A DNA stretch of 64,000 nucleotides from contig NZ_QPJY01000003.1 in the NCBI RefSeq assembly GCF_003337735.1, forward strand, positions 214,712 to 278,711, read 5' to 3'. The position numbers were made by a program, and so were the translations under genes. The notes beneath the pieces were generated by a model. It was not told where the DNA came from, searched no databases, and saw only the letters and a program-made list of their open reading frames with translations. This stretch comes from Thioalbus denitrificans (GTDB lineage: Bacteria > Pseudomonadota > Gammaproteobacteria > DSM-26407). Positions 6,140 through 53,723 of the stretch are shown here, one piece after another (position 1 is the stretch's first letter; each line of letters opens with the position of its first letter).

Positions 6140-6151
6140 GGGTTGATTGAT

Positions 6152-6217: not shown

Positions 6218-6316
6218 TCGAGGGTGCCTGAAGTCTCGTCGTGACCGCAGGGCCGTGGCATGTGGCGGCACAACAAGACGTCACCGCTGCCCAAAGACTG
6301 CAGGTGTTTTCATTTT

Positions 6317-6392
6317 CCTTCAAATCAACGCAATCTGCGGTTAAACGGCTTTTTTCTTGAATCCTGTCTATCCTGTAAATCCTGTCTACTAA
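6317..6392 (-). repeat. Dispersed ACAGGAT-type intergenic repeat, copy 3 (inverted)
   Basis: ATCCTGTCTATCCTGTAAAT and CCTGTCTA are the reverse complement of the units in copy 2, preceded by CGCAATCTGCGG. It lies immediately past the stop of the minus-strand SUMF1-like gene, so copies 2 and 3 form a loose inverted pair between two convergent genes. Confidence 0.6.
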
Positions 6393-6394
6393 AC

Positions 6395-10409: not shown

Positions 10410-10439
10410 TCCCCGGGGTCCTGCCGGCAGGCCGGGCGG

Positions 10440-10889
10440 TCAGGGCCGCTCGTGCCGCTCGCGGCGCTGCTCCCGGGTCACCAGCCGCACCAACTCCACC
10501 ATCCCCTCCGCCAGCAGGTCCAGCAGGTCGTCCACGGTGAGGATGCCGAGCAGCAGACCGCCGGCGTCCACCACCGGCACCCGCCTGACTCCCGCCGCGC
10601 GCATCTCCGCGAGGGTGTCCAGCAGATCGTCGTCCTCGCGGGCGGTCACCAGCTCCCGGCTCATGATGTCCGCGACGGTGAGGCCGGCGGGCGCCACCTC
10701 CTGCGCCAGCACCTCCACCACCAGGTCCCGGTCGGTGACGATGCCGACCGGCCGGCGCCCCCCTTCATGCTCTTCCACCACCACCAGGTCGCCCACGTGA
10801 TGCTGGCGCATCAGCCGGGCGGCCTCGCCGATGCCGGCGGCGCCGGTCACCACGATCACCTCGCGGCTGCAGATCTCTCCCACGGACAT
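10440..10889 (-). CDS. CBS-domain-pair protein
   Basis: A 149-residue cytosolic protein made of two CBS motifs: residues 1-65 (CSREVIVVTGAAGIGEAARLM then PVGIVTDRDLV) and 70-130 (IMSRELVTAREDDDLLDTLAEM then LLGILTVDDLLDLL). Such Bateman modules bind adenosyl ligands and usually regulate a partner. Nothing is fused to it. The ATG at 10889 sits two bases after the stop of a 69-residue gene on the same strand, so the two are likely translationally coupled. Confidence 0.87.
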   Translation of the reverse strand: MSVGEICSREVIVVTGAAGIGEAARLMRQHHVGDLVVVEEHEGGRRPVGIVTDRDLVVEVLAQEVAPAGLTVADIMSRELVTAREDDDLLDTLAEMRAAGVRRVPVVDAGGLLLGILTVDDLLDLLAEGMVELVRLVTREQRRERHERP

Positions 10890-10890
10890 G

Positions 10891-11100
10891 TCAGCGCCCC
10901 TCCGCTTTCCCGGGCCGCAGCGCCGGAGGTGTCCAGGCGACACCCCGGGCCGCGAGCCAGGCGGCAAAACGTGCGTTCTTCTCCTCCAGGGAACAGGTGG
11001 GAGGCAGTGCGTCGAGCCAGTGGCCGTACTCCTCCAGCAGCCGCAGCCGGGCATCCTCCGCCAGGTCGTCCCAGGGTTCGCCTTTCCCGGCAGCGTTCAT
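10891..11100 (-). CDS. Small hypothetical protein upstream of CBS gene
   Basis: A 69-residue soluble protein with charged helices (WDDLAEDARLRLLEEYGHWL and CSLEEKNARFAAWLAARGV). No signal peptide or known motif. It is tightly packed against the CBS-pair gene (one base between stop and next ATG), which is the best support that it is real. Confidence 0.55.
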   Translation of the reverse strand: MNAAGKGEPWDDLAEDARLRLLEEYGHWLDALPPTCSLEEKNARFAAWLAARGVAWTPPALRPGKAEGR

Positions 11101-11399
11101 CGGCCAGCCTCCACGCGCGCCCCTTCACTCGATAGTATCGTCCCTGCAACCCCGGTCGGCCACCGTGACCGAATGGTAAAAATCTGTAAACAAGACATCA
11201 GTCCGCTTGTGGTATTACCAACCACGGTGTTTATTTTTGAATGTCTGCAGTTCCAGTACCGGTTGTCTCGGAAGTTCATTCAGCAACCTCCTTGAAATCC
11301 CAGTACTTGCAGCACAGCCCGTGTTACGCGCGGCGCGACTGCCCGGCGCGGAATGCAGGCACAAATTCCGTTTCGTGAATTTCGAGTGAGGTGAATCAC

Positions 11400-11603
11400 A
11401 TGGCGACTGGCAAGATCAAATGGTTCAACGACTCCAAGGGCTTCGGTTTCATCGCCCCTGACGATGGCAGCGAGGACGTGTTCGTGCACTACTCGGCCAT
11501 CCAGGGCTCCGGCTTCCGCACCCTCAAGGAAGGTCAGTCGGTGACCTACGAGATCCAGCGCGGCCCCAAGGGCCTGCAGGCGGCCAACGTCGTCCCTTCC
11601 TGA
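11400..11603 (+). CDS. cspA: Cold shock protein, CspA family (copy 1)
   Basis: A 67-residue single cold-shock domain that binds single-stranded RNA/DNA. RNP1 ([10 protein letters not shown]) and RNP2 (VFVHYSAI) are intact. The ATG at 11400 follows GAGTGAGGTGAATCAC. A GTG nine bases earlier is in frame but less likely. The protein is nearly identical to the product at 19966-20169. The 300 bp in front has no gene and would form a long leader, as is usual for cspA mRNAs; a local GGAAT/ATTCC hairpin sits near 11350. A strong terminator follows. Confidence 0.95.
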
Positions 11604-11627
11604 AAACAGACTCCCCCGTTCTCCCCG

Positions 11628-11656
11628 AAACCCCGCCACCGGCGGGGTTTCCTTTT
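11628..11656 (+). terminator. Rho-independent terminator of cspA copy 1
   Basis: AAACCCCGCC, a three-base loop, and GGCGGGGTTT form a perfect 10-bp stem followed by CCTTTTT. It begins 24 bp after the cspA stop and also lies just past the 3' end of the convergent permease gene. Confidence 0.9.
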
Positions 11657-11670
11657 TCCGTTCCCGGCCC

Positions 11671-12915
11671 TCAGGCGACGCCGCGGCCCAGGAACCAGCC
11701 GAAGATACCCAGTTGCAGCAGGGTCAGGGGAATGCCGGCCCGGGCGAACTCCAGGAATCCGAGGCTCGTGCCGTCACGCCGTTCCGCGGCCTGGATGATG
11801 ATCACGTTGCTCGCCGCCCCCGGAACCAGGAGATTTCCCGCCAGCGTGCTGGCGGCGGCCAGCGCCAGCAGCAGCTGGGGGCCGCTGTCGGCAAGGACCG
11901 GCAGGTAGAGGGCCACCAGCGGAACATTCGAGACCAGCTGGCTCAGCCCCACCCCGACGCCCATGACCACGGGCAGGGTATCGAGCCCCCCGCCCGCCGC
12001 CGCCACCAGCGACTGGAACAGGGGTGCCCGCCACACGCTCTCCATGAGCACGAACAGGGCTGCGAAGAAGACCAGGGTGTGCCAGTCCAGGCGCCGCAGC
12101 AGCACGCCCCGGCGCGGACTGAACAGCAGCAGTGGCAGGGCGCCGGCCAGGGCAATCCAGGTCAGGCGGAAGGTCAGCCCCGGCCACCACAGCGCCGCTG
12201 CGATGCGTGCGGCCACCCCCGCCAGGACCAGCCCCAGGGCCAGCCGCGCCAGTCGGGCCAGGGCCGGATCGGAGATCCCGACGGCGGCATGGCACAGGGG
12301 GGCGGGATGGAAATGGCGCCGATAGACGACACGCAGCACGCACCAGGCCAGCACCAGGCTGATGAGGGTCGGCAGCAGCAACCCGCCGAGAAATTCCAGG
12401 AACGGACTGGACAGCCCGCCGCTGAGCGCAATGAGCAGGTTCTGCGGGTTCCCGATGGGACTGGCGACGCTGCCGGTGGTGACCCCGAAGGCCAGCGCCA
12501 GCAGCAGCAGCTGGGGCGGGAGGCCGTGCTGGCGCGCCAGCAGCAGCATCAGCGGCGTGCCGATGATGGCCAGGGTGTCGTTCATCAGCAGCGCCGAGGT
12601 GAAACCCGAGCCGGCCAGGACCGCCAGCACCAGGCCTCCGCTGCTGCGGATCCGGCGCAGCAGGCGGTAGCTGACGAAGAACAGGTAGCCGCTCTCCACC
12701 AACGCCTCCCCCACGACGAACATCCCGAACAGGAACAGCATCACGTCCCGGTCGATGGCGTCCCAGGCGCGGGCCGGCGTGGTGGCGCCGGTCAGCAACA
12801 CGATCGCCGCGCCCGCCAGCATGGCCTGCCAGATGGCGACCCGCAGCGCACCGGCCCGGCGGACCACGATGAGCGCGAGCACCCCCAGGAGGACAAGGAC
12901 GGGCAGGTCGGACAC
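11671..12915 (-). CDS. SLC13/ArsB-type ion permease
   Basis: A 414-residue integral membrane protein with about 11-12 hydrophobic segments. The family pattern of the citrate/ArsB/NhaD (ion transporter superfamily) group is clear: DVMLFLFGMFVVGEALVESG, SGFTSALLMNDTLAIIGTPL, GVTTGSVASPIGNPQNLLIA and, in the second half, GLSQLVSNVPLVALYLPVL and AGNLLVPGAASNVIIIQAAE, giving the two Asn-Pro/hairpin repeats. The substrate is not predictable. The start is a GTG at 12915, six bases past the stop of the ATP-grasp gene, with no strong ribosome site, so translational coupling is likely. Confidence 0.85.
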   Translation of the reverse strand: MSDLPVLVLLGVLALIVVRRAGALRVAIWQAMLAGAAIVLLTGATTPARAWDAIDRDVMLFLFGMFVVGEALVESGYLFFVSYRLLRRIRSSGGLVLAVLAGSGFTSALLMNDTLAIIGTPLMLLLARQHGLPPQLLLLALAFGVTTGSVASPIGNPQNLLIALSGGLSSPFLEFLGGLLLPTLISLVLAWCVLRVVYRRHFHPAPLCHAAVGISDPALARLARLALGLVLAGVAARIAAALWWPGLTFRLTWIALAGALPLLLFSPRRGVLLRRLDWHTLVFFAALFVLMESVWRAPLFQSLVAAAGGGLDTLPVVMGVGVGLSQLVSNVPLVALYLPVLADSGPQLLLALAAASTLAGNLLVPGAASNVIIIQAAERRDGTSLGFLEFARAGIPLTLLQLGIFGWFLGRGVA

Positions 12916-12920
12916 GGGTG

Positions 12921-13727
12921 TCAGATGGCGACGGGGAGGTGCCGGTCGGGCTCTAGCGGCGGGATGCCGGCGCCTTCCAGATAATCGAGGATGTGCCGCC
13001 CCAGGGAGATGCCGCGTCCATTCAGCGCCTGGTTGCCGAACAGGACATTGAACTCCAGGAAGTAGAGCTGGCCGTCCACCAGCGCCAGGTCGAAGCCGGC
13101 GTGGTCGATGCCGAGATCCGCGGCCACCCGCTCGGCCAGCGCCAGGGCCTCGGGCGGCACCCCGTCGAAACTCACCCCGCCGCCCCGGGCCACGTTGTTG
13201 TGGAAAGCGCCCTCGGCCCCGATGCGCCAGTAGGCGGCCACCGCCCGCTCGCCCACCACCACCACCCGCAGGTCCCGCTCCAGGGGCAGGTACTCCTGCA
13301 CGTACAGCACCTCGTTCCGGGCGGCGTAGTCGAGGAAGCCGCGCCGATCCTCGATCAGGTGCACGCCGCGGCCCATGGAGTTGCGCGGCTCCTTGGCCAC
13401 GAAGGGAAAGGAGAACTCCTCCAGCACCTGTTCCACGTTCGCCTCGGTGGCGGCCCGGATCACGGTATGGGGGAGATGGTCGGGACAGACCGACCACAGG
13501 GCCCGGGTCATCTCCACCTTGTCATGGCCGAGGTGGTAGCTGGCCAGGCTGGGGAAGATGCGCCGCTTCAGGCCGTAGACCAGGGCGTTGACCTGCCAGT
13601 ACTCCGGAAACAGCACCCAGTCGGCCTCCCGCAGGATGTCCCGGTGGCGGAACACCTCCTCGGGCTTGATGTAGGTGATCCCCGGGATATCGAGGCTGCG
13701 ATAGGGATTGAACGAGACCAGCCGCAT
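12921..13727 (-). CDS. ATP-grasp protein, RimK/glutathione-synthase-like
   Basis: A 268-residue ATP-grasp enzyme. Visible elements are FPFVAKEPRNSMGRGVHLIED (ATP-binding Lys and glycine loop), YVQEYLPLERDLRVVVVGERAVAAYWR, and the Mg-binding DLALVDGQLYFLEFNVLFGN with its Glu-Phe-Asn. Such proteins ligate an amino group to a carboxylate; peptide or protein C-terminus substrates are both known. It is translationally coupled to the permease that follows. A strong tandem-repeat tract lies directly upstream. Confidence 0.83.
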   Translation of the reverse strand: MRLVSFNPYRSLDIPGITYIKPEEVFRHRDILREADWVLFPEYWQVNALVYGLKRRIFPSLASYHLGHDKVEMTRALWSVCPDHLPHTVIRAATEANVEQVLEEFSFPFVAKEPRNSMGRGVHLIEDRRGFLDYAARNEVLYVQEYLPLERDLRVVVVGERAVAAYWRIGAEGAFHNNVARGGGVSFDGVPPEALALAERVAADLGIDHAGFDLALVDGQLYFLEFNVLFGNQALNGRGISLGRHILDYLEGAGIPPLEPDRHLPVAI

Positions 13728-13813
13728 ACGACGATACGACCATGGGTGGTTGAGGGCGCGGCTATTCTATTCGCGCCGGGGTGATTGGCAAGGGAAATTT
13801 ATGGCGGGGAAGG

Positions 13814-13883
13814 GTGTTCCGTGTTCCGTGTTCCGTGTTCCGTGTTCCGTGTTCCGTGTTCCGTGTTCCGTGTTCCGTGTTCC
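13814..13883. repeat. Tandem heptamer repeat, ten copies of GTGTTCC
   Basis: Ten perfect, uninterrupted copies of the 7-base unit GTGTTCC (70 bp), starting 87 bp upstream of the ATP-grasp start codon. Because the unit is not a multiple of three and lies outside genes, copy-number change would alter spacing but not a reading frame. Confidence 0.97.
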
Positions 13884-13920
13884 GCCAAGAGCGTCCCCGG
13901 AAACAGCGGGCCCGCGCAAC

Positions 13921-14024
13921 CGCACTCACGCACTAACGCACTAACGCACTAACGCACTCACGCACTCACGCACTCACGCACTCACGCATTCACGCATTCA
14001 CGCATTCACGCATTCACGCACTCA
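13921..14024. repeat. Tandem octamer repeat, thirteen copies of CGCAYTMA
   Basis: Thirteen contiguous 8-base units: six CGCACTCA, three CGCACTAA and four CGCATTCA, with like variants grouped together. It starts 37 bp after the heptamer array. Grouping of variants suggests stepwise unit duplication. The two arrays fill most of the 344-bp gap between the ATP-grasp gene and the lipoprotein gene; no gene is seen there. Confidence 0.97.
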
Positions 14025-14071
14025 GGGTGACGGGCAACCGGCTTCCGGCAACCGGTGCCAGGCGGTCGGCC

Positions 14072-14413
14072 TCAGTCCTTGTAGTTCTCGTAGAAGACGT
14101 AGCTGGTGGAGTAGTCGCTCACCTCGAAGTAGATCTTCTTCTCGCCCGGGTCCGCCTGGAGGTTGAAGTTCTCGTCCACCACCCCGTAGCCGTAGCGGTA
14201 GGGGCGGGGCTGGCTGTCTTCGGTCCCGTAGGCGGTGCTGAGCTTGTCCACCTTGACCAGGCGCAGCACCAGCTTGTCGGCGGCGTAGACGTCGAGCACG
14301 CCATTGTCGCCGGTCCAGTTGCGGATGCCGCGACCGATCTTGTTCTGCGCCTCCTGGGTACAGCCGGCCAGGAACGCGGCGCAGAGAAGCAGCAGGAGCA
14401 GGGGATTGCGCAT
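14072..14413 (-). CDS. Small lipoprotein of unknown function
   Basis: A 113-residue protein with a type II signal peptide: MRNPLLLLLLCAAFLAGC ends in a clear lipobox with Cys18. The mature part (IRNWTGDNGVLDVYAADKLV, RPYRYGYGVVDENFNLQ, KKIYFEVSDYSTSYVFYENY) is beta-rich and ends near the C-terminus in aromatic residues. The ATG at 14413 is preceded by a GGAGG-like purine run. Likely anchored to the inner leaflet of the outer membrane. Role unknown. Confidence 0.8.
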   Translation of the reverse strand: MRNPLLLLLLCAAFLAGCTQEAQNKIGRGIRNWTGDNGVLDVYAADKLVLRLVKVDKLSTAYGTEDSQPRPYRYGYGVVDENFNLQADPGEKKIYFEVSDYSTSYVFYENYKD

Positions 14414-14517
14414 GGGGGTCCTCCCTCGGTTGGGCCGATTCTCACCGCAGTATACAGGGCCGGCCCCGTGGCACTCATCTCCCCGGGGGGATGGGCGATG
14501 ATGCCCGGCGGGCGCTG

Positions 14518-15591
14518 TCAAGGCCGGTGCAGCGCCCCGAGCAGCGCGGCGACCAGGTCCCCGGGCGCCACGCCGGGCAGGTCGAGGCCGATCTCCGCCA
14601 CCGCCCCCGTGATGGCGGGGAGCAGCGCCGCCCCGGTCAGCTCGACGCCCCGCAGGCGCTGGGCCAGCGCCGCCACGCCATCATCGGGCAGGGCGGTGAA
14701 ATCCCCCTCGATGAGCAGGTCGTCGATGCGCCCGTCGCGCTCCCGCAGGATCACCCGCACCAGTCCGCCCGGCGCCTTGTGGAGCCCCTCGGTCAGGTGG
14801 GTTCCGGCGGCGATCTTCACCCCCATGGCGGCCCGCCGGCGGCCCAGCCGGTGGGTCCACTCCGGGTCGGCCAGCTCCGTCTCGGCGGCGCGGATGGCGG
14901 CCTCCTCGGCCGCCGTGGGACGGTCCTCCACCGCCGTGACGCCGAGGCACGTCTCCACCTGCTCCAGGAACAGGGTCTTGAGGTGCGCACGGCTCGGCGG
15001 TTGGTCCAGCTCGCGGCGCAGGGTGGTCATGTAGTCCCGCAGGGTGAGGCGCAGCTTGTCGCGGAACTTCTCCGAGGGAACGCGCACGCAGCGGGCCATG
15101 GTCTCGATGTCGAAATCGAACATGAAGCTGCCCACCATCACCGCCGCCGCCCCGATGCGCGCCGCGCCCGTGCCGCCGATCTTGCGGCCGTGGACATGGA
15201 TGTCGTTCACCGGGCGGAAGGCGGCCTCCACGCCCAGCGCCCGGTAGGTGCGCACCACCGGTTCGATGAAGCGGGGGTAGATCTCCACCGCCCGGGCGGG
15301 GACCTGCGCCGGTGGATAGATGAAGTGGAAAAACATCTGCCCGGCATCGAGGTAGACCGCCCCGCCGCCCACGTGGCGGCGGATGACCGGCAGCCCGGCG
15401 CCGCGGCAATAGTCCTCGTCCACATCCAGGGCCACCTCCTGGTGCAGGCCGATGCAGACGTAGGGGTCGCTGGGGTTGACCAGGCTGAGGACCGGGCCGT
15501 CGCCGGGCCGGAAAGCTTCCGCGAGCCCGTGGTAGACCGCCTGGGAGCGGAGGGCCGGAACACTGCCGAAGTCAATGACGCGCAACCGCAT
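14518..15591 (-). CDS. lplA: Lipoate-protein ligase A family protein
   Basis: A 357-residue biotin/lipoate ligase-fold protein. The lipoate-binding loop RRHVGGGAVYLD and the catalytic Lys in NDIHVHGRKIGGTG are present, so attachment or transfer of lipoyl groups to carrier proteins is likely. Residues about 240-357 form a C-terminal accessory domain as in LplA-type enzymes, with an additional alpha/beta extension. No lipoylated carrier gene is near. A predicted small RNA on the same strand ends about 105 bp upstream of its start. Confidence 0.86.
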   Translation of the reverse strand: MRLRVIDFGSVPALRSQAVYHGLAEAFRPGDGPVLSLVNPSDPYVCIGLHQEVALDVDEDYCRGAGLPVIRRHVGGGAVYLDAGQMFFHFIYPPAQVPARAVEIYPRFIEPVVRTYRALGVEAAFRPVNDIHVHGRKIGGTGAARIGAAAVMVGSFMFDFDIETMARCVRVPSEKFRDKLRLTLRDYMTTLRRELDQPPSRAHLKTLFLEQVETCLGVTAVEDRPTAAEEAAIRAAETELADPEWTHRLGRRRAAMGVKIAAGTHLTEGLHKAPGGLVRVILRERDGRIDDLLIEGDFTALPDDGVAALAQRLRGVELTGAALLPAITGAVAEIGLDLPGVAPGDLVAALLGALHRP

Positions 15592-43843: not shown

Positions 43844-44120
43844 TTCCTCCGGCCGGTGGCGGGGGCGCGGTCTGGCCGCCCCCGTTCCGCTGGCATCGTT
43901 CAGAAGCCGCGGGGAAGGCCATTGCCCGACTGCCTGGCGGGGGGGTGTCTGCGTGGCTATTCTCAGAGTGTGGGACGCCCGGCCAACAATAGCCGTGTCA
44001 ACGGCAGAGCGGGCATTCCGGCCATTTGATTCACGACCGCCCATCCACGCCGGAACATCCTGAACATCCATTTCGATGGGTGGCGCGGCCGTTACGAACG
44101 CTCGAATGCCAGGGAGGCGA

Positions 44121-45218
44121 ATGATGAACGCAGGACATCATGATGGACTTTGGCGCCTGGCGCTCCTGGCATTGCTCAAGCCATGCCTCTTCCTCGCCAT
44201 CGCTTCCGGCGCGCTGTACGGCCTCCCCGCCTTATCGGAAGGTCCCCGCGTACACCCCGTCGATATCGCTGTCGGGTGGGGGCAGAGCTGCATTCTCGGA
44301 GACAACGGCCACGTCTGGTGCTGGGGCAATAAGCTGCTCAACGGCCAGGCTGAAGACACGGCCACCCCGACCCGGGTCCAGGGCGTCGCGGATATCCGGA
44401 AAATTGCCGCGGGCCGGCTCGGCACCTGCGCCATCGATGCGTCCCGCAAGGTCATCTGCTGGGGAATGCAGATCTACAGGAAGGAATTCTCCGCCGAGCC
44501 GTACCTGATCGAGGGGCTGCCTCCCGCGCAACAGGTGGCCATCGGCTTCCAGCACTTCTGCGCCCTGACGACCGGCAGGGAGGTGTACTGCTGGGGAGCA
44601 AACGCCGCGGGCGAGATCGGCGACGGCACGGTTGAGGATCGACTGCAACCGGTCAAGGTGGAGGGGGTGAGCGATGTCATCGCCCTCGATGCCGGCGTCA
44701 ACAACACCTGCGCGATTGAAGCCGGGGGCACGATCAAGTGCTGGGGTACCGACGACCCGGGCAACCCGGAACAGGGCTTTGCCATTAGTTCATTCACCCC
44801 GAAAGTCGTTCAAGGGCCCGGGCAACTGCTGACCATTCGCAATGCCCGCAATTACGTGTGCGGGATTCGTGTCGACGGCATCCTGTTCTGCTGGGGCTCT
44901 CCCTACGCACTTCCGGTCACGGATGGAAAGCTCTACACCGTACCGGAAGCCCCGCGTGCATTCGCAGTAATCCTCAGCGGTGAGAAGAGAGTCATCGACG
45001 TAGGGCTGGGCGCATTCAGCGGCTGCGCCGTCTTCGAGAACGGACAAATGCATTGTTGGGATTATAACGACGAGCCGAAACCGGCCCCGGACTTCGAGGG
45101 CGTCGAGAGGATCTCCATGGATTCCCAGACCAGGGGCTGCGCACTCCTCAGGGGCGGGCTGGTCCGCTGCTGGGATATTGATATAAGCGACAATGAGGAG
45201 ATATCCATTCCCGACTGA
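44121..45218 (+). CDS. Secreted RCC1-repeat (seven-bladed propeller-like) protein
   Basis: A protein of about 365 residues with a single N-terminal hydrophobic segment (LALLALLKPCLFLAIASGALYG), likely a signal peptide or anchor. The body repeats an RCC1-type unit with the kernel VxCWG: HVWCWGNKLLNGQ, KVICWGMQIY, EVYCWGANAAGEIGDGT, TIKCWGTDDP, ILFCWGSPY, QMHCWDYND and LVRCWDID, each preceded by an SCxI/TCAID-type strand. Paired cysteines in each blade suggest disulfides and export. GGAGG at 44113 allows ATG 44121 or 44124. Base composition is lower in GC than neighbours. Function unknown. Confidence 0.78.
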   Translation: MMNAGHHDGLWRLALLALLKPCLFLAIASGALYGLPALSEGPRVHPVDIAVGWGQSCILGDNGHVWCWGNKLLNGQAEDTATPTRVQGVADIRKIAAGRLGTCAIDASRKVICWGMQIYRKEFSAEPYLIEGLPPAQQVAIGFQHFCALTTGREVYCWGANAAGEIGDGTVEDRLQPVKVEGVSDVIALDAGVNNTCAIEAGGTIKCWGTDDPGNPEQGFAISSFTPKVVQGPGQLLTIRNARNYVCGIRVDGILFCWGSPYALPVTDGKLYTVPEAPRAFAVILSGEKRVIDVGLGAFSGCAVFENGQMHCWDYNDEPKPAPDFEGVERISMDSQTRGCALLRGGLVRCWDIDISDNEEISIPD

Positions 45219-45327: not shown

Positions 45328-45355
45328 TTGTCTTTCCGGCTTCCACTGCTATATT
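45328..45355 (+). promoter_or_regulatory. Sigma-70 promoter candidate for the RiPP-like operon
   Basis: TTGTCT (45328-45333), a 16-base spacer and TATATT (45350-45355), about 90 bp upstream of the precursor start. Confidence 0.5.
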
Positions 45356-45446
45356 TCCCTTTAATCCGAGCGGTTTTCATCCGGCCGGGACGGGCGGGAA
45401 CCACCGGAAGACATGCGGTTTCCAGGGGGCAACAGGGAGTATGGCC

Positions 45447-45695
45447 ATGGAGAAGAAACCGGCATCACGCAGGGCCAACCGGAAGCTGGTCGTGCAGGCG
45501 CTCACCGATCCGAAGTTCCGCAAGCTGCTGCAGACCGATCCGGCGGCGGCGCTGGGGGTGAAGAAGCTCACGGCCGTCCAGACCAAGGAGGTGCAGCTGG
45601 TCCTGGCGATGGTCCGCGGCATCGACCGCCAGATCAGCAACCTGGCCGACGAGTTGCTGTGCGCCAATGGCGGTGGAGGCTGCGGCATTGCCTGA
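45447..45695 (+). CDS. RiPP-like precursor peptide, Os1348/NHLP-type leader
   Basis: An 82-residue peptide. Residues about 12-60 look like the Os1348-type NHLP leader: VVQALTDPKFRKLLQTDP then AAALGVKKLT, matching the ALTDPxFRxLLxxDPxxAL...LT pattern. The tail is ELLCANGGGGCGIA with Cys72 and Cys79 separated by Ala, Asn and four Gly, the probable modified core. GGGAG at 45434-45438 favours ATG 45447 over ATG 45441. Three radical SAM genes follow without gaps, the first overlapping its 3' end. I cannot assign it to a named RiPP class; nitrile-hydratase-like leader kinship is an inference from the pattern. Confidence 0.8.
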   Translation: MEKKPASRRANRKLVVQALTDPKFRKLLQTDPAAALGVKKLTAVQTKEVQLVLAMVRGIDRQISNLADELLCANGGGGCGIA

Positions 45696-46785
45696 CCTCG
45701 GCCTCCCGAACGGGGAGGTCCTGGTCGCCACCACCTGGGAATGCAACCTGCGCTGCGCCTACTGCTTCGTGAAGGAGCAGACGCAGGCCGCGGGTGCCCG
45801 GCACATGTCCGCGCAGACCGCCCGGCGCGTCATCGACGCGCTGGACGAGGGCCTCCCCCACGTGGAGAGCATCTGCGTTCACCTCTACGGCGGCGAGCCG
45901 CTCACCAACATTCCGGCCATGGGCGCCCTGGTGGAGCAGGCCCGGCGGAAGGCGGCCGGGCGCTTCAACTTCGCCATCACCACCAACGGCTCCATATGCT
46001 CCGACGAGCTGCTGGAGCTGCTGGACCGGGGGCGGTTCCAGGTCATCCTCAGCATCGACGGGCCGGCGGAGGTCCACGACGCCTGCCGGCGCACCGCCGG
46101 CGGCCGGCCGACCCATGCCCGGGTGCTGGAATTCCTGCGGGCGGTCCGCGCCCGCACCCGCTGCCGGGTGCGCGGATCGGCCGTGGTCCGCTCCGGCTGG
46201 AGCCTGGCGGAGGCCGAGCGTTACCTGCGCAGCCTCCCGGTCCACAGCATCAAGGCCCAGGCGGTGCGGGTGCCCCGGGACGATCCCTTCGCCCTCTCGG
46301 CGCCGGAGCGGGAACGCTACTTCGCCGATCTCGAGGGAGTGGCCGACCAGGTCATCGGCGAGCTGGAGGCGGGGCGCGCCCCCCGCGACGACCGCTTCTC
46401 CAACCGGGTGCTCCAGCTGCTGGCGGGGCGCTCGCGGGAGCGCTTCTGCGGCGCCGGCGAGACCACCTTCGGCTTCACGCCCGAAGGCACGGTGCTGCCC
46501 TGCGTGCTCCTCGACGACCCCGCCCACCGGCTCGGCCACGTGGCGGAACCCCCGGCGCGCTGGGTGGCCGCCGGCGCCCGCTGGCGGGCCGCGGGCGGAC
46601 GCCGAGCCGAGTGCGCCAGCTGCGCGGATGCGCCGCTGTGCGGCGGCGGCTGTCCCGCCATCGTACCGGTCTGCGGGGCGGACGAGTGCGAAATGGTGCA
46701 CCACAACTGCGCCATGGCGCGGAAGATCCTCGCCCACTTCAGTGACCGCCCCGAGGACCTGCTGCCGCTGGCGGGCATCGAATGA
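45667..46785 (+). CDS. Radical SAM/SPASM peptide maturase 1
   Basis: A 372-residue radical SAM enzyme. The SAM cluster motif is CNLRCAYC at about residue 27, followed by YGGEPLTN. The C-terminal SPASM domain shows FCGAGETTFGFTPEGTVLPCVLL and then CASCADAPLCGGGC...CGADEC...C, enough cysteines for two auxiliary clusters. Such enzymes form thioether, C-C or C-O bonds in peptides. The ATG overlaps the precursor gene by 29 bases; a TTG at 45688 with GGAGG upstream is an alternative start. Its stop overlaps the next gene by four bases. Confidence 0.88.
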   Translation: MAVEAAALPDLGLPNGEVLVATTWECNLRCAYCFVKEQTQAAGARHMSAQTARRVIDALDEGLPHVESICVHLYGGEPLTNIPAMGALVEQARRKAAGRFNFAITTNGSICSDELLELLDRGRFQVILSIDGPAEVHDACRRTAGGRPTHARVLEFLRAVRARTRCRVRGSAVVRSGWSLAEAERYLRSLPVHSIKAQAVRVPRDDPFALSAPERERYFADLEGVADQVIGELEAGRAPRDDRFSNRVLQLLAGRSRERFCGAGETTFGFTPEGTVLPCVLLDDPAHRLGHVAEPPARWVAAGARWRAAGGRRAECASCADAPLCGGGCPAIVPVCGADECEMVHHNCAMARKILAHFSDRPEDLLPLAGIE

Positions 46786-47984
46786 GCCGGCCCCCGCCCC
46801 AGTGCCGGGCCGCCCCGCCCGGCTTCGACCCGGCGGCAGTCGAGCCGCCGCCCCTGCGCGAGCGCCGCTGGCCCGTGGAGGCCCTCGCGCTCGACGTCTC
46901 CGGACGCTGCAACCTGGCCTGCCGCTACTGCGCCGAGGCGGCCACCCAGCCCCGGCGGCGTCCCGCCATGGAGCGGGAGATCCTGGACCGCGCCGTCGCC
47001 TGGCTGGGGGAAGACGCGCGGAGCGGCGGGAGCCTCCGCCTGGGCAGCGGCGAGCCGCTGCTCGCCGGCGGCCTCCTGCGCGGGCTCGCCGGGCGGCTGG
47101 CCGCGGCCCGCCGGGCGGGCGCGCCGGCGCCCGAGGTCTTCCTCACCACCAACGGCACGCGGCTGGATGCCGCCACCCGGGAGTGGCTGGTGGAGAGCGG
47201 CTGGCACGTGAAGGTCAGCCTCGACGGGCCGCCCGCCATCCACGACCGCTGGCGCGTCACGGCCCGGGGGCGGCCCACCTGGCGGCAGGCGGCCGCGGCG
47301 GTCCGCGACCTGGCCGCGCGCATCCCCGCGCGCTTCAGCGTCACGGCGGTGCTCTGCCGCGGCGCGGCGCCGGCCGAGGTGTTCGACGCCATCGCCGCCC
47401 TGGGGGTGCGCCGCATCGAGCTGGTGCCGGTGGGCCACCCCGACCCGGCCGTCCTCCCCGACGCCGCCGACGTGGCCCGCTACCGCGATTTCGTCGGCGA
47501 GTACGTGGACCGCTACGTCGCCGACCCGGCCGAAGTTCCCGAGCTGGTGAAGGTGATCAACGCCGCCCGGCGGGTGATGGGCTACGACGTCAAGCGGGTC
47601 ACCTGCGGGGCGGGCCGCAATTTCCTCGGCGTCGGGCCGGACGGCGGACTCTACCCCTGCTTCCGCTTCATCGGGGTGGACGCCTACCGCATCGGCCACA
47701 TCGCCGCGGGTGTCGACCCGGTGGCCGCGGCGCGTTTCCGGCAGGCCGGCGGACGGCCCTACGACCAGCGGGAGCCGTGCCGCGCCTGCTGGGCCGCGCC
47801 CCTGTGCGGCGGCCCCTGCTTCGCCGAGGCCGAACTGCTCGGACCGGGCGGCGGGGCGCCCTTCGCCCTCCACTGCGACTACGTGCGCGCCGACGCCGCC
47901 GGGGCGGTCGCGCTGGTGGAGCGGCTGCGCGGGCGGGATCCGGAGCGTCTGCTGGACCTGCTGTCCGGATTCATCGACTTCTGA
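46782..47984 (+). CDS. Radical SAM/SPASM peptide maturase 2
   Basis: A 400-residue enzyme with CNLACRYC after LDVSGR, a LRLGSGEPLLAGG segment, and a SPASM domain: VTCGAGRNFLGVGPDGGLYPCFRF then CRACWAAPLCGGPC and a last Cys in HCDYVRA. About 40 residues precede the radical SAM domain and may be a partial peptide-recognition region. It is only distantly similar to maturase 1, so the two probably make different linkages or act in sequence. ATGA overlap with maturase 1. Confidence 0.88.
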   Translation: MSRPPPQCRAAPPGFDPAAVEPPPLRERRWPVEALALDVSGRCNLACRYCAEAATQPRRRPAMEREILDRAVAWLGEDARSGGSLRLGSGEPLLAGGLLRGLAGRLAAARRAGAPAPEVFLTTNGTRLDAATREWLVESGWHVKVSLDGPPAIHDRWRVTARGRPTWRQAAAAVRDLAARIPARFSVTAVLCRGAAPAEVFDAIAALGVRRIELVPVGHPDPAVLPDAADVARYRDFVGEYVDRYVADPAEVPELVKVINAARRVMGYDVKRVTCGAGRNFLGVGPDGGLYPCFRFIGVDAYRIGHIAAGVDPVAAARFRQAGGRPYDQREPCRACWAAPLCGGPCFAEAELLGPGGGAPFALHCDYVRADAAGAVALVERLRGRDPERLLDLLSGFIDF

Positions 47985-47986
47985 CC

Positions 47987-49264
47987 ATGGCGCCCCGCGT
48001 CCTCCTGGTGAAGCCGCCGGAAGCCTCGCGCTTCAATTTCGGCACCTTCAGCCTGGCGGTGCTGGCCGCGGCCGTGCGCGACATCGCCGAGGTGGAGATC
48101 CTCGACGCCACCCGCCTCGGCCTCGCCGAGGCCGCCCAGCGCATCGCCGAACGCACGCCCCGCTGGGTGGGCATCACCACCATGGCCCTGAGCTCGCTGC
48201 CCCCCGCCGCGGAGCTGGTGCGCCGGCTGCGCGGCGCCGTGCCGGATGCGCACCTCGTGGTCGGGGGCCACGGCGCCACCATGCTGCCGCGCATCCCGCT
48301 GGAGGCAGGCGCCCACACGGTGGTGCTGGGCGAGGGGGAGATCACCTTCCGGCGGCTGCTGCAGGACGAGCGCTCCACGGACCTGGCCGGGCTGGCCCGG
48401 CTGTCGGGCGGCGAGCTGCTGCAGGGCCCCGCGGCGCCGCAGGTGGCGCCCCTCGACGCGCTCAACACCCCGGCCCACGACCTCGTGCCGGAGCCCGAGG
48501 ACGGCGTGCACCTGCTCGAGACCAGCCGTGGCTGCCCCCACGACTGCAGCTTCTGCGAGACCACCCGCTTCCACGGCCGCCGCTGGCGCTACCACACGCC
48601 GGCGCGGGTCGCGGCCGAGGTCCGGCACCTGGTGCGCGACCTCGGCGCCTGGATCATCGAGATCACCGACGACAACTTCGCCGCCAGCCGCCGGCGGGTG
48701 CTGGAGATCACCCGGCTGCTCCGCCGGGAGGATCTGCCCGTGTTCTTCATGCTGTCGGCCCGGGCGGACGACCTGCTGGCCCATCCCGGGCTGCTGCCGG
48801 CCATGGCCGGGGCGCGCATGCTGCGCATCTCCGTGGGGGTGGAGAGCCTGGACCCGGGCCTCGCGGTGCGGGCCGGAAAGTCCCTCGCCGTCGGGGACTA
48901 CGCCCGCCTGTTCGGGCGCATGCGCGAGCTGGGGATGTTCTCGGTGGCCTCCTACATCGTCGGGCTGCCCGGCGAGACCGCCCGGGCCCGGCGCAAGGCC
49001 GTGGAGCTGGCCGTGGCGGCCGGCTCCGATGCCGCGCAGTTCCTACCCCTCTATCCGTTTCCGGGCCTGCCCCTGCCGGCCGGCAACGACAGCTACGACC
49101 CCGATCCCGCGGCGGCCGCCGACGCCGAGCGCTTCACCCGCGAGTTCTACGCCCACCCCGCCGTCATCGCGCGCCTCACCCGCGCCGCCTCCGGCGGGGG
49201 TGTCCGCGCCCTGCTCGCCGGCGGGACGCTCGCGAAGCATCCGCCGCCGACCTGTTCCGCGTAA
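47987..49264 (+). CDS. B12-binding-type radical SAM enzyme
   Basis: A 425-residue protein starting three bases after maturase 2. The N-terminal half is a cobalamin-binding-like Rossmann domain (VLLVKPPEASRFNFGTFSLAVLAAAV, WVGITTMALSSLPPAAELVRRLR, HLVVGGHGATMLPR, TVVLGEGEITFRRLL). The radical SAM cluster is in LETSRGCPHDCSFCETTRFHG, followed by FMLSARADDLL and ASYIVGLPGET. Class B members methylate unactivated carbons; in this operon the likely target is the precursor core. Last gene before a drop in GC content. Confidence 0.87.
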   Translation: MAPRVLLVKPPEASRFNFGTFSLAVLAAAVRDIAEVEILDATRLGLAEAAQRIAERTPRWVGITTMALSSLPPAAELVRRLRGAVPDAHLVVGGHGATMLPRIPLEAGAHTVVLGEGEITFRRLLQDERSTDLAGLARLSGGELLQGPAAPQVAPLDALNTPAHDLVPEPEDGVHLLETSRGCPHDCSFCETTRFHGRRWRYHTPARVAAEVRHLVRDLGAWIIEITDDNFAASRRRVLEITRLLRREDLPVFFMLSARADDLLAHPGLLPAMAGARMLRISVGVESLDPGLAVRAGKSLAVGDYARLFGRMRELGMFSVASYIVGLPGETARARRKAVELAVAAGSDAAQFLPLYPFPGLPLPAGNDSYDPDPAAAADAERFTREFYAHPAVIARLTRAASGGGVRALLAGGTLAKHPPPTCSA

Positions 49265-49352: not shown

Positions 49353-49437
49353 TCACAGGTGCGTTTGAGGCGATGCGTGCCTTTGCAACAGCAATGGTGC
49401 GCGGCGGGTCAAACGTCACCTGCAACGTGTTGTTATA
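49353..49437 (-). other. Degenerate attC-like inverted repeat at cassette end
   Basis: Read on the minus strand, ATAACAACACGTTGCAGGTG, then A, CGTTTGA, about 40 bases, TCAAACG and CACCTG. Arms CAGGTG/CACCTG and CGTTTGA/TCAAACG pair with one unpaired A, as in attC sites, directly after the stop of the HEPN-like gene. The right-hand GTTRRRY core is not found, so it may be truncated or decayed. Confidence 0.4.
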
Positions 49438-50386
49438 TTTCGCCCAAATCGAAAGGTAATTCAAATTTTGCATATTCTTCCAAATCCGTGACAAACTCCG
49501 CCCAATCATTTCTGACAACGCGCTTTGCAGCATAGTGCGCCGCCATTAGTGAGAAAGCACCGGCTACGGCGGCCAGATCAGAGACAAATTGACGCAACCT
49601 CTCCGTATCATCTCGCCCATAAGACAAATATATTGCGTCACGGTAGTTGGCCTTTCCTCGGTAGCGGAATGCTTGGACTAGGTAATTTACGTGAGCAGGG
49701 TTGAGCTTCACATCACGTAAAGCCTTCGCGGCGTCGGACCGGAAACTATTGAAGCCGCCTTGCTTGTATTCGCGACTATCCTTGACCATTTCCTCAATGC
49801 GCCATTGCTCGTACTCCGCAGTACCTTTCAAATAGGAGTAGAGAGCGCCGCGAGCCATATCTTCATTTGTTGGCTCTGTATTCAGATAATGCGCATTACC
49901 AGCACGTAGCGTGCTCATGACTTGGCGTACATTGTTAGGCGTAATGCCGGTGATGCAGAGATCGAAGGGCGCCATAACTAGACCAGCACCTACAATTTCG
50001 GCTTGCCACACCTTGCCGGCTGAGGCGTGCGTTTGAGGATCAGTGCCAGAAGACGCGGCCAGCATGGCCTTTGCTGCGTAGTAGGTTGCATAGTACCACG
50101 CAACAATTGCTGACCTGACAATGGGGTATGGATTTTCAATTACCTTCATTGAATCGATGGCACTGACGTTGTGTATCGACATCGTGAGACATTCGTACGC
50201 CAACGCATCTGCCTGCTCGTTGGCTTGGCGCCGCTGGGTACGCTGATAGAACTGCTGTAGCTGCTGATAGGAAAACTGACCATCTACAAGGATGGCCAAG
50301 CCCCTCATCCAATTGACGGTGCCCTGGAAAGCAAACCGCGGCGTCGGTTGATCAGCGTGGGTGAAAAGTTTGTTCAGAAGCCACAT
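49433..50386 (-). CDS. HEPN-like protein in a probable integron gene cassette
   Basis: A 317-residue soluble protein. The segment SAIVAWYYATYYAAKAML followed by THASAGKVW resembles the HEPN helix pair, though a full RxxxxH RNase motif is not evident. The rest is helical and polar. Lower GC and different codon use set it apart from the window. Its ATG at 50386 lies about 20 bases after the core of an attC site, the arrangement expected of an integron cassette. Role not recognised; defence- or toxin-type functions are common among HEPN proteins. Confidence 0.6.
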   Translation of the reverse strand: MWLLNKLFTHADQPTPRFAFQGTVNWMRGLAILVDGQFSYQQLQQFYQRTQRRQANEQADALAYECLTMSIHNVSAIDSMKVIENPYPIVRSAIVAWYYATYYAAKAMLAASSGTDPQTHASAGKVWQAEIVGAGLVMAPFDLCITGITPNNVRQVMSTLRAGNAHYLNTEPTNEDMARGALYSYLKGTAEYEQWRIEEMVKDSREYKQGGFNSFRSDAAKALRDVKLNPAHVNYLVQAFRYRGKANYRDAIYLSYGRDDTERLRQFVSDLAAVAGAFSLMAAHYAAKRVVRNDWAEFVTDLEEYAKFELPFDLGEI

Positions 50387-50401
50387 AGTTGGCACCAAGA
50401 A

Positions 50402-50470
50402 ATATAACGCCAAGCTCAGCCGAGGAAGGCCGCAACGCGGCCTGACGTCGGCTGGAGCGACGTGTTAGAT
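50402..50470 (-). other. Integron attC recombination site
   Basis: Outer cores TAAC (50405-50408) and GTTAGAT (50464-50470, a full GTTRRRY match) enclose paired AGCCGA (50418-50423) and TCGGCT (50448-50453) boxes and a central perfect 7-bp hairpin AGGCCGC-AAC-GCGGCCT (50427-50443). Length 69 bp, within the normal attC range. The HEPN-like gene starts just inside it. Confidence 0.75.
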
Positions 50471-50667
50471 TTTTGCCTCAGCAAGTACTTTCTCCGTGTT
50501 ACCGATCAGCACCTCAGAGATCCCCTCATTTTCGATGCAATTAAGCGGTATTTTGCGGAAAAACTGGCAGCAAATAAGGAATTGATCGAGGCATAAGGAG
50601 ATTCGATCCCGGCGACGCGTTTTCTCTGGCAGGCTATCCCTTGAAACTGGACCACCGGGAGCCTGCG

Positions 50668-50912
50668 ATGAAGCCGACGAAGTGCGAGGGACTGGACCGT
50701 ACGGATGTGCAGAAATTTGTCGCTGACATTTTCGAGGGGGACATCCACGCCAAGCGCGTGCTGTCGCTGGCGAATGCGACAACGGGCGTTCTGGCAGCCG
50801 GTTCGCTGGCGGTTTCGGCCATTGGCCAGGGTCTTGCGCATGTCTGCGGCCTGGACCCGAAGCATACGGTGAAACAGGTGGACCGGTTGCTTGGCAACGC
50901 CAAGATCGAAGA
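50668..50912 (+). pseudogene. IS4-family transposase, N-terminal remnant
   Basis: MKPTKCEGLDRTDV..., then HAKRVLSLANATTGVLAAGSLAVSAIGQGLA and PKHTVKQVDRLLGNAKI match the N-terminal domain of IS4-type transposases (the usual KHAIKQVDRLLSN stretch). Only about 80 residues remain; the DDE catalytic domain is gone and the frame runs into the REP-like palindrome at 50933. The stretch 50471-50667 before it holds no supported gene. Confidence 0.75.
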
Positions 50913-50932
50913 TCGAACGGAAAAGAACGGAA

Positions 50933-50987
50933 AAGGGGTCGGTGACAACTGGTAATTATAAAGATTCTCATTTGTCACCGACCCCTT
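50933..50987. repeat. REP-like palindromic element, copy A
   Basis: AAGGGGTCGGTGACAA (50933-50948) and its exact complement TTGTCACCGACCCCTT (50972-50987) flank a 23-base AT-rich spacer with GTAATTATAAAG. The same arms and a similar spacer recur at 51374-51423. Confidence 0.85.
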
Positions 50988-51028
50988 ATCGACCCCTTAT
51001 CGGTGTCGCCGTGTCGCCCCCTATGGTG

Positions 51029-51244
51029 CTATCTTTTTTTTGTGAATCCTTTGAACATTATATAAAAATGCACCACCATCCCTATGAACGTCACTGAAAA
51101 ACCTGCATAAATGATAATCCGACCCGACAGATCAAGACCAAGCATAAACAACAGAAAACCTGCACAGACAACCAGAAAGCCAATAATACTTACGTTAAGC
51201 CCTTTTGCTTTCTGTGGCTCAATACTTTTTACAAGTCGACTCAC
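51029..51244 (-). CDS. Small two-helix membrane protein
   Basis: A 71-residue protein with a GTG start. A polar, basic N-terminus (SRLVKSIEPQKAKG) is followed by two hydrophobic helices (VSIIGFLVVCAGFLLFMLGL and IIIYAGFSVTFIGMVVHFYIMF) and a KGFTKKR tail. It is AT-richer than most of the window and lies between the two REP-like elements. Not recognised; could be part of mobile cargo. Confidence 0.5.
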   Translation of the reverse strand: MSRLVKSIEPQKAKGLNVSIIGFLVVCAGFLLFMLGLDLSGRIIIYAGFSVTFIGMVVHFYIMFKGFTKKR

Positions 51245-51373
51245 GTCAGCCCCTGATCAACACCGAATGATTAATTAAAAACAGATCGTCCTTAATTGGC
51301 AGTTTATAATTCCACCTGCACCGCCACCACCAATACCAACAATACCTTTTCCGATAGTTTCACGATGAGGGAA

Positions 51374-51423
51374 AAGGGGTCGGTGACAAATGATAATTAT
51401 TCAAGTTTGCCACCGACTCGTTT
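51374..51423. repeat. REP-like palindromic element, copy B (degenerate)
   Basis: Left arm AAGGGGTCGGTGACAAA is identical to copy A; the right arm TTTGCCACCGACTCGTTT has three changes. The spacer TGATAATTATTCAAG resembles that of copy A. Confidence 0.8.
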
Positions 51424-51443
51424 CTCCTCATGTAAACCACAAT

Positions 51444-52229
51444 TCACTGCGCCACCACATCCGGAACCGGCTCCTGCGCATCCTGAACCATACCCCGACA
51501 CCTCGGGTACGTACTGCAACCCCAGAATATCCGTCCCGCGTTGCTTCCCGACCTCGCCTGCCGCCGCACCATGGGCGCACCACACTTCGGGCAGGGCGGG
51601 GCCTGTTCCTCCGCGTCGCCATCGCTCTCCGCAACACCGCCGGCGGACTCATCCGGCACAGGCATTCCCACAGGCGCCACCAGTGGCGGCGCAACCACTT
51701 CCGCCGTTTTCGCACCGGTCGAACCCTGCTGCCCAAGCGCCCCGAGCACCCTGTCCCGTAGCTCGGACACGGTGTAGGCCCGTTGCGCCTGGACCTGGAC
51801 CAGCGGCAGCCCCGCCGCATGGCATACCCCGGTGAGGAAGTCATCCCTCGCCTTTCTGTCTGCCCGCTGGTGGGACCTGTCATCGAGCTCGATGGCGCAG
51901 GCGACCGAGAGATCGTCCCAGGCGCAAAGCAGGAAATCGAAGTGCTTGGATCTAATCCGGTTCCACGCTGAGCTACTATCGCTCCTGCCCAACCGCCGCC
52001 ACACATCCACTACGTCCGCCACGCGCACCTTGCCGAAGATGCGGTACCTCTCCCCCACTGCCTGGTCGAGGACGCCGAGGAAGGAGCGCTCCGCGGGCGT
52101 GAACAGCGCATCCCTTTTCTCATACGGAAACTCTTCGTCCGGCTTGTCCGCCCGCTTCGGTTTCGCGGCGAGCAGCACCAGCACCAGAACCAGAACCACC
52201 ACCACGACCGCCAGAATCGCCCAGATCAT
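51444..52229 (-). CDS. DUF2726-type membrane-anchored protein with topoisomerase zinc finger
   Basis: A 261-residue protein. One N-terminal transmembrane helix (IWAILAVVVVVLVLVLVLLAA) is followed by a DUF2726-like nuclease-fold region (ALFTPAERSFLGVLDQAVGERYRIFGKVRVADV, then SKHFDFLLCAWDDLSVACAIELDDRSHQRADRKARDDFL) and a C-terminal C4 zinc finger of the topoisomerase I type (CPKCGAPMVRRQARSGSNAGRIFWGCSTYPRC). The combination suggests nucleic acid binding at the membrane. GAGGGAACGAA precedes the ATG at 52229. Confidence 0.8.
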   Translation of the reverse strand: MIWAILAVVVVVLVLVLVLLAAKPKRADKPDEEFPYEKRDALFTPAERSFLGVLDQAVGERYRIFGKVRVADVVDVWRRLGRSDSSSAWNRIRSKHFDFLLCAWDDLSVACAIELDDRSHQRADRKARDDFLTGVCHAAGLPLVQVQAQRAYTVSELRDRVLGALGQQGSTGAKTAEVVAPPLVAPVGMPVPDESAGGVAESDGDAEEQAPPCPKCGAPMVRRQARSGSNAGRIFWGCSTYPRCRGMVQDAQEPVPDVVAQ

Positions 52230-52449
52230 TTCGTTCCCTCGCCTCCATCCACACGGCCACCCTGTCCCGCCGGCGCCCTTGCGCCAGAGCGTTGGCTCAA
52301 ACTGAAATCTATGAGACCTGTACCCGGTCGTATGTAGGCTAACGCCGTCCTTCGTGTCAGCCATTACCTACATGCCATCCACATGCGGCGTATCGGGCCG
52401 ACTCCCGCGGGAGTCGTGTTTACAGGGCCGGCTGATCCGGGCGGCCCCC

Positions 52450-52478
52450 TTGACTCCGCCCCCGAACACTCCTACAGT
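52450..52478 (+). promoter_or_regulatory. Promoter of arsR, likely giving a leaderless mRNA
   Basis: TTGACT, a 17-base spacer and TACAGT (52473-52478). The ATG starts at 52486, seven to eight bases past the -10, which is where transcription should begin. Confidence 0.65.
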
Positions 52479-52493
52479 TCGAAACATGTCGAA
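52478..52493. promoter_or_regulatory. Candidate ArsR operator over the start codon
   Basis: TTCGAAACATGTCGAA is an inverted repeat (TTCGA and TCGAA around six bases) lying across the predicted transcription start and the ATG, so bound repressor would block initiation. Confidence 0.5.
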
Positions 52494-52815
52494 TATTCGT
52501 AATCCAATCGAGGCCCATGCCGAGCAGTTCAAGGCGCTGAGCAATCCCCACCGCCTGGCCCTGTTCCGGCGCCTCACCACCTGCTGCCCGCCCGGCACCG
52601 CCTGCAGCGCCGAGGAGGCGGTGCGCTTGAGCGTCGGCCAGCTGGGCGTGGGGCTCGACATCGCCCCCTCCACCCTCTCCCACCACCTCAAGGAGCTCCA
52701 TCGCGCCGGGCTGGTGCAGATGGCGCGCCGGGGCAGGCAGGTGGAGTGCTGGGTCGAGCCAGACACCCTGGAGCAGCTCGCCGCCTTCTTCGGCGGGCCG
52801 TCCCCGCAACCCTGA
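52486..52815 (+). CDS. arsR: ArsR-family transcriptional repressor
   Basis: A 109-residue winged-helix repressor: EQFKALSNPHRLALFRRL, the recognition helix IAPSTLSHHLKELHRAGLVQMARRGRQVECWVEP. Cysteines sit in RLTTCCPPGTACSAEE, between the first helices; this differs from the ELCVCDL site of the E. coli protein but would suit As(III) binding. It precedes the arsenite methyltransferase gene by 17 bp and is its likely regulator. Confidence 0.9.
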   Translation: MSNIRNPIEAHAEQFKALSNPHRLALFRRLTTCCPPGTACSAEEAVRLSVGQLGVGLDIAPSTLSHHLKELHRAGLVQMARRGRQVECWVEPDTLEQLAAFFGGPSPQP

Positions 52816-52832
52816 TTTCACGGAGCCTACCC

Positions 52833-53723
52833 ATGGGCAAAGAGAACACCTGCTGCGGTCCTTCCACCGCCGCCACCGAGAACCGCACCGACTCCTCCCG
52901 CCAGGACACGCACCGGCAGGGCGTGCGCGAGGCCTACGCCCAGGTGGCCCGGGCCGACAGCGCCGGCGAGGGCTGCGGCGTCGGCGCGAGCTGCTGCGGC
53001 ACCAGCGACGACGGGGCCATCAACACCCTCATCTCCACCCGCCTGGGCTACAGCCAGGCGGATCTCGACCGGGTTCCCTCCGGCGCCGACATGGGCCTCG
53101 GCTGCGGCAACCCCAAGGCCATCGCCGCCCTCAAGCCGGGCGAGGTGGTGGTGGACCTGGGCGCCGGCGGCGGCTTCGACTGCTTCCTCGCCGCCCACGA
53201 AGTGGGCGCCTCGGGCCTCGTCATCGGCGTAGACATGACCCCGGACATGCTCTCCAAGGCGCGCGCCAACGCGGAGAAGGGGCGGTTCGGGAACGTGGAG
53301 TTCCGCCTCGGCGAGATCGAGCACCTGCCCATCGCCGACGGGACCGCCGATGTCATCATCTCCAACTGCGTCATCAACCTCTCGCCCGACAAGCCGCAGG
53401 TCTTCCGCGACGCCTTCCGGGTGCTCAGGCCGGGCGGACGGCTGGCCATCTCGGACGTGGTGGCCACCGTGGAGCTGCCCGCGGAGATGCGCGGAGACGC
53501 CGCCCTCATCGCCGGCTGCATGGGCAACGCCTCGCTGATCGGGGAGCTGGAGCGGATGCTGCGGGAGGCCGGCTTCGAGGGGATCCGCATAGAGCCAAAG
53601 GACGAGTCGAAGGAGTTCATCAAGGACTGGGCGCCGGGGCACAACGTCACCGACTACGTGGTCTCCGCCACCATCGAGGCGGTCAAGCCGGGCGGCGGGT
53701 GCTGTTGCGGCGGCAGCTGCTAG
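52833..53723 (+). CDS. arsM: Arsenite methyltransferase
   Basis: A 296-residue SAM-dependent methyltransferase. Cys pairs (ENTCCGPS, GCGVGASCCGTSDD) lie before the SAM loop VVDLGAGGGFDCFLAAHEVG; NCVINLSPDKPQVFRDAFRVLRPGGRLAISD is the family hallmark. A Cys-rich end (GGGCCCGGSC) could help bind As(III). The enzyme methylates arsenite to less toxic or volatile forms. GGAG precedes the ATG at 52833. Operon arsR-arsM. Confidence 0.93.
   Translation: MGKENTCCGPSTAATENRTDSSRQDTHRQGVREAYAQVARADSAGEGCGVGASCCGTSDDGAINTLISTRLGYSQADLDRVPSGADMGLGCGNPKAIAALKPGEVVVDLGAGGGFDCFLAAHEVGASGLVIGVDMTPDMLSKARANAEKGRFGNVEFRLGEIEHLPIADGTADVIISNCVINLSPDKPQVFRDAFRVLRPGGRLAISDVVATVELPAEMRGDAALIAGCMGNASLIGELERMLREAGFEGIRIEPKDESKEFIKDWAPGHNVTDYVVSATIEAVKPGGGCCCGGSC

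Follow-up and report, generated by a model that had tools for sequence, protein, structure and literature searches.

A four-gene operon in Thioalbus denitrificans that looks like an uncharacterised kind of radical SAM-modified peptide system

The stretch of Thioalbus denitrificans DNA analysed here (the window, 64,000 nucleotides in full) carries, at positions 45447-49264, four genes on the same (+) strand that encode a small precursor peptide, two SPASM radical SAM enzymes and one B12-binding radical SAM enzyme, and Chlorobium ferrooxidans DSM 13031, a green sulfur bacterium of another phylum, has the same four genes in identical order. Together they look like a real, uncharacterised kind of modified peptide within the known radical SAM RiPP operons. 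The reading that we favour, as probable though well short of certain, is that of a self-contained RiPP-maturation operon, in which a nitrile hydratase (NHase)-like leader presents a Gly/Cys tail to the SPASM pair and to the B12 enzyme, resulting in a defined product. A leader of the NHLP clan and a possible role of the Gly run of the tail in leader cleavage are points that the original prediction for this DNA did not contain.

Operon layout and surroundings

The features of the operon in the window are the following, each with the evidence on which it was called.

45447..45695, + strand: precursor peptide, 82 aa (open reading frame, profile matches, comparison with C. ferrooxidans, predicted fold)
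45667..46785, + strand: SPASM1, radical SAM/SPASM maturase, 372 aa (CxxxCxxC and the seven-Cys SPASM pattern)
46782..47984, + strand: SPASM2, radical SAM/SPASM maturase and paralogue of SPASM1, 400 aa (motifs, profile matches, tree)
47987..49264, + strand: B12-binding radical SAM enzyme, 425 aa (PF02310 and PF04055; CxxxCxxC at residues 183-190)
45328..45355, + strand: sigma-70-like promoter match, TTGTCT-16-TATATT, about 90 bases 5′ of the precursor (consensus match only)
45489..45539, + strand: putative NHLP motif 1, VVQALTDPKFRKLLQTD (by-eye alignment to the NHase/NHLP consensus of PMC2887384)
45660..45692, + strand: C-terminal tail CANGGGGCGIA (conserved in C. ferrooxidans; Gly run in the position of the Gly-Gly motif of NHLP leaders)

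It had been predicted that an 82-residue peptide ending in C-A-N-G-G-G-G-C-G-I-A would be followed by three radical SAM genes with overlapping or touching ends, and both the peptide, with its reading frame and tail, and the coordinates of the three genes agree with that description. The precursor overlaps SPASM1 by 29 nt, SPASM1 overlaps SPASM2 by 4 nt, and a gap of 2 nt separates SPASM2 from the gene of the B12 enzyme. For the precursor an alternative in-frame ATG is possible at 45441, six bases further 5′, and the spacing of a GGGAG at 45435-45439 suits the start at 45447. The start of SPASM1 is uncertain, being either the ATG at 45667 or a TTG at 45688 behind GGTGGAGG. The GC content of the precursor by codon position (0.67/0.43/0.89) follows the pattern typical of a real gene, and an Rfam search returned no match in the window or in the C. 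ferrooxidans locus.

The gene directly 5′ of the operon, on the same strand (44076-45218, +), encodes an RCC1-repeat protein that probably has a signal or anchor at its N-terminus; it is absent beside the C. ferrooxidans copy. The gene on the 3′ side is on the opposite strand and has no Pfam match. Just 3′ of the operon, positions 49433-52000 show a lower GC content (down to 55%), atypical codon use and genes without Pfam match, and look like acquired DNA. Further along (52354-53723, +) an ArsR-type regulator is followed by an arsenite-methyltransferase-like protein, named by inspection from its methyltransferase domain and Cys-rich ends. The earlier remark that no protease, transporter or immunity gene is present holds for both copies, as none adjoins the operon in the window or in C. 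ferrooxidans.

A second copy and the distribution of the operon

The C. ferrooxidans copy was found by scanning one genome per species, 84,980 species in all, with an alignment of SPASM2, and it was the one close SPASM2 relative among the matches listed (49% identity). Its locus (L014) holds the precursor at 2908-3165, SPASM1 at 3137-4258, SPASM2 at 4255-5517 and the B12 enzyme at 5483-6751, and the identities with the window are 60% for the precursor, 50% for SPASM1, 49% for SPASM2 and 48% for the B12 enzyme. A similar small peptide thus does stand next to the orthologous enzymes, as would be expected if the pairing proposed earlier were real. The flanking genes differ between the two genomes. 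The operon has a GC content of 48% in C. ferrooxidans (45-49% around it) versus 75% in the window, so neither copy contaminates the other, and contamination as the origin of the Chlorobium copy was excluded on these grounds. In a third lineage, a Magnetococcales bin (locus L013, identical to L015), a SPASM2-like gene stands in tandem with the terminal part of a SPASM1-like gene; the contig end cuts off the 5′ side of this pair, and no B12 gene follows on its 3′ side.

The taxonomic order of T. denitrificans is represented by only two genomes, and neither SPASM1 nor SPASM2 had a close match in the sister genome (G001, 87% complete). The precursor was absent from 85 other genomes of the C. ferrooxidans family, and the B12 enzyme was found at high score in none of 97 other genomes of its class. 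No further full copy turned up in the genomes sampled from the class and phylum of the window, from the Chlorobiaceae, their class and the phylum of C. ferrooxidans, from the class of the Magnetococcales bin or from the phylum of Desulforhabdus. When all the SPASM loci collected were scanned for small reading frames with a C..GGG..C tail and with the precursor profile, only the two known precursors were returned. Neither the B12 enzyme nor the precursor had a relative on viral contigs, phages held distant SPASM homologues only, and plasmids gave no precursor match and only distant homologues of the enzymes. A literature search found no paper linking C. ferrooxidans to a RiPP. From this distribution we infer a rare, transferred trait. 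Conservation is read throughout from one comparison, because two complete copies are known among the matches listed.

The precursor leader

As judged from profile matches and a predicted structure, the precursor is composed of a helical, nitrile-hydratase-like (NHLP/Os1348-clan) leader of about residues 1-74 and a flexible tail, GGGGCGIA. Residues 13-69 match the Os1348 family NF038399 (E 2.6e-6, 27.4 bits, below the cutoff of 40), and the NHLP model TIGR03793 (15.6 bits, below its cutoff of 50.9) and the nitrile hydratase models are matched more weakly, all below cutoff. A profile made from the two precursors matched nitrile hydratase alpha (4ob1) in the PDB at E 7e-5. Motif tables for NHase/NHLP leaders, covering motif 1 and motif 2, have been published (PMC2887384), and the segment aligned with motif 1 is largely kept in the C. 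ferrooxidans precursor. AlphaFold predicted helices at residues 6-74, mostly with pLDDT above 90, and a loose tail of low confidence after them. Foldseek searches with this model returned Os1348 (6lk7) first, at E 3.1, and nothing significant, and a second structure aligner gave middling helical matches; these rows were not counted as proof of the leader relationship.

What the precursor has in common with the NHLP/Os1348-clan precursors and the proteusins (TIGR03793, NF038399, PF14407; PMC2887384, PMC7726476) is an NHase-alpha-like leader with motif 1, a Gly run where they have their Gly-Gly region, and a Gly/Cys tail. In contrast to them, it scores below every curated cutoff and has a very short, non-variable core, and its operon has no linked TOMM or LanM enzyme or exporter. 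The radical SAM partners here are of the SPASM type, whereas the proteusin epimerases are non-SPASM.

The conserved tail and the extent of the core

The precursor ends in LLCANGGGGCGIA in the window and in LLCVTGGGGGCGIA in C. ferrooxidans, with the final eight residues identical, C72 and C79 both kept, and an extra Gly in C. ferrooxidans that leaves the C-terminal register unchanged. Of the eight codons for the final residues, seven differ between the two copies, at the third base (35 codons differ synonymously over the whole precursor), so that selection acts on the peptide tail. The original prediction had made tail conservation among relatives a central point, and it is borne out in the one relative with a precursor. 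Tail and leader identities (9/11 versus 40/71) do not differ significantly (Fisher p 0.19), and on two sequences the tail appears no less conserved than the leader. The fixed tail could stem from enzyme recognition rather than from the function of the product.

The core may be shorter than this tail. In the NHLP precursors the Gly-Gly cleavage site closes motif 2, ELSDEQLDAVAGG (PMC2887384), and a run of four to five Gly occupies the place of this Gly-Gly motif in both precursors; the core may therefore be only (G)CGIA. The Gly run would then be a leader-cleavage motif, the mature product would contain a single Cys, and C72 would be leader-side or modified in passing, which makes this a sub-version of the RiPP reading, differing in what the core is. 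By a count made by eye, motif 2 agrees with NLADELLCANGGG of the window at 7 of 13 positions and with its C. ferrooxidans counterpart ALADQLLCVTGGG at 4-5, and the unchanged register behind the extra Gly also speaks for a short core; however, C72 is conserved as well, and a search for C39 peptidase domains detected none in the draft genome of C. ferrooxidans and a single match in the genome of the window, at 34 bits and unlinked to the operon. We consider so short a product possible but doubtful.

The SPASM enzyme pair

In SPASM1 and SPASM2 the CxxxCxxC motif is conserved, as is each of the seven SPASM Cys. Both enzymes score over the cutoff for PF04055 and just under it for PF13186, and SPASM2 is over the cutoff for the SPASM domain TIGR04085. 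Their nearest named families are the QhpD, PapB, Nif11-peptide and SCIFF maturases, each with a score well under its cutoff, and the nearest solved structure is the radical SAM protein 5wgg. Only about 25-40 residues precede the radical SAM motif, and by this length an N-terminal RRE would not fit in either enzyme. In a tree of 31 proteins the SPASM1 and SPASM2 rows formed separate, well supported clades that were joined in one clade (97/95), from which the two are probably an ancient duplicate pair, kept together in three lineages.

By sequence, SPASM2 is closest to the PapB-type ranthipeptide and SCIFF maturases (NF047865, TIGR03974, PDB 5wgg), which are likewise radical SAM enzymes with SPASM domains and act on Cys-containing peptides. 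The scores against PapB are 132-151 bits, however, for a cutoff of 340, and the operon differs from the PapB and SCIFF systems in its two tandem SPASM enzymes, their N-termini too short for an RRE, its NHLP-type substrate and its B12 partner.

For SPASM1 the best named family is QhpD (TIGR03906, 1e-40), the maturase of quinohemoprotein amine dehydrogenase (QHNDH), which installs Cys thioethers in a small protein. The precursor might by analogy remain uncleaved, as a small protein with a crosslinked tail that works in place, like the gamma subunit of that dehydrogenase after QhpD has acted. The predicted order of the helical leader and the lack of a linked protease or exporter would suit such a protein. 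Yet SPASM1 scores 139.8 bits where the family cutoff is 453, the dehydrogenase subunit genes stand beside neither copy, and a B12 enzyme is not known to belong to the QhpD system, so that we hold an uncleaved product to be unlikely.

Other loci with several maturases were seen during the searches. In the same genome, L009 (G000:C10, about 10439-14652, - strand) has three SPASM radical SAM genes behind a Cys-rich small reading frame ending in MTACACCGTQGGMKCGCGPRF, and adjoins a TonB-dependent-receptor-like gene (L009:14667-16979). Two of these SPASM genes also occur in the sister genome (G001:C486, L005); they are not close to the operon described here. A Candidatus Aminicenantes locus (L031, 5314-9897) likewise carries a tandem of three SPASM radical SAM genes.

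The B12 radical SAM enzyme

The B12 enzyme is over the cutoff for both of its domains (PF02310, 59.5 bits, cutoff 32.1; PF04055, 62.7 bits), and its Cys 183, 187 and 190 are conserved in C. ferrooxidans. It has in common with ApyD and other RiPP B12 radical SAM C-methyltransferases (NF050148, TIGR03975) the B12-binding domain, the CxxxCxxC core and the setting in a RiPP operon; its scores against them are nevertheless 106 bits for ApyD (cutoff 750) and 55 for TIGR03975 (cutoff 282), and BchE scores almost equally. ApyD, BchE and HpnR are its nearest named families, and its PDB neighbours include AprD4. B12 radical SAM enzymes in RiPP operons usually methylate; BchE and AprD4 are B12 radical SAM enzymes that are not methyltransferases. 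With BchE among its nearest relatives, the enzyme may do chemistry other than methylation. Its AlphaFold model was poor (mean pLDDT 55) and was left unused. None of the three enzymes was at the curated cutoff of any named NCBIfam maturase, which is consistent with the earlier statement that the combination matches no named class.

Proposed maturation and product

The three radical enzymes most likely modify the Gly/Cys tail of the precursor. In the mechanism that we propose, the folded helical leader would dock on the enzymes and offer them the short, flexible tail. The SPASM pair would most likely join a Cys sulfur to a neighbouring carbon, the candidates being a Gly alpha-carbon or the conserved Asp of LAD-x-LLC, and the B12 enzyme would most likely methylate one of the tail carbons. 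While the genes, their co-conservation, the relationship of the leader and the conservation of the tail are observations, it is from the enzyme families that we infer thioether formation, C-methylation and a function of the product, and the reactions, their order and the cleavage of the leader are to be read in the same conditional sense.

Since the tail is constant between the two phyla and genes for export or immunity are not linked to the operon, one defined compound is more likely than a diversifying bacteriocin. An antibacterial, bacteriocin-type RiPP exported by unlinked genes would find a precedent in the NHLP-clan precursors, which cluster with exporters (PMC2887384), and in Os1348, the loss of which lowers antibiotic activity in Pseudomonas Os17 (PMC7726476), and the sporadic distribution fits transfer. 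NHLP cores, however, are described as hypervariable (PMC2887384), whereas here, in the two members at hand, the final eight residues are the same in two phyla; moreover, an exporter, protease or immunity gene is absent near either copy, and no C39 domain was detected in the C. ferrooxidans draft, which together make a bacteriocin rather improbable. It is hardly credible that overlap with the SPASM1 start, or a ribosome-binding site for that gene, has produced the conserved Gly tail as a side effect. The Gly codons do lie within the overlap, which takes in part of the tail, and GGTGGAGG has a suitable position for the TTG at 45688. This reading was nevertheless rejected because the nucleotide changes in the tail are synonymous in the precursor frame and residue-altering in that of SPASM1, the N-terminus of which is not conserved, and because the Cys and IA flanking the Gly run are conserved too.

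Under the preferred reading of a RiPP-maturation operon, a defined product would have a set role, as a cofactor-like compound, a metal or redox ligand, or a signal. A more specific and tentative proposal, to which we give only limited credence, is a RiPP class of its own, in which an NHLP-type carrier with a fixed (G)CGIA or CxxG4-5CGIA tail would be crosslinked by the SPASM pair and C-methylated by the B12 enzyme into an invariant intracellular metal or redox ligand.

Significance

With four genes and a copy in the type strain DSM 13031, the operon is amenable to heterologous co-expression. Radical SAM-processed peptides have become cofactors in other cases, namely PQQ and mycofactocin. A fixed tail and three dedicated radical enzymes, found in two phyla and absent from nearly all sampled relatives, point to one defined compound.
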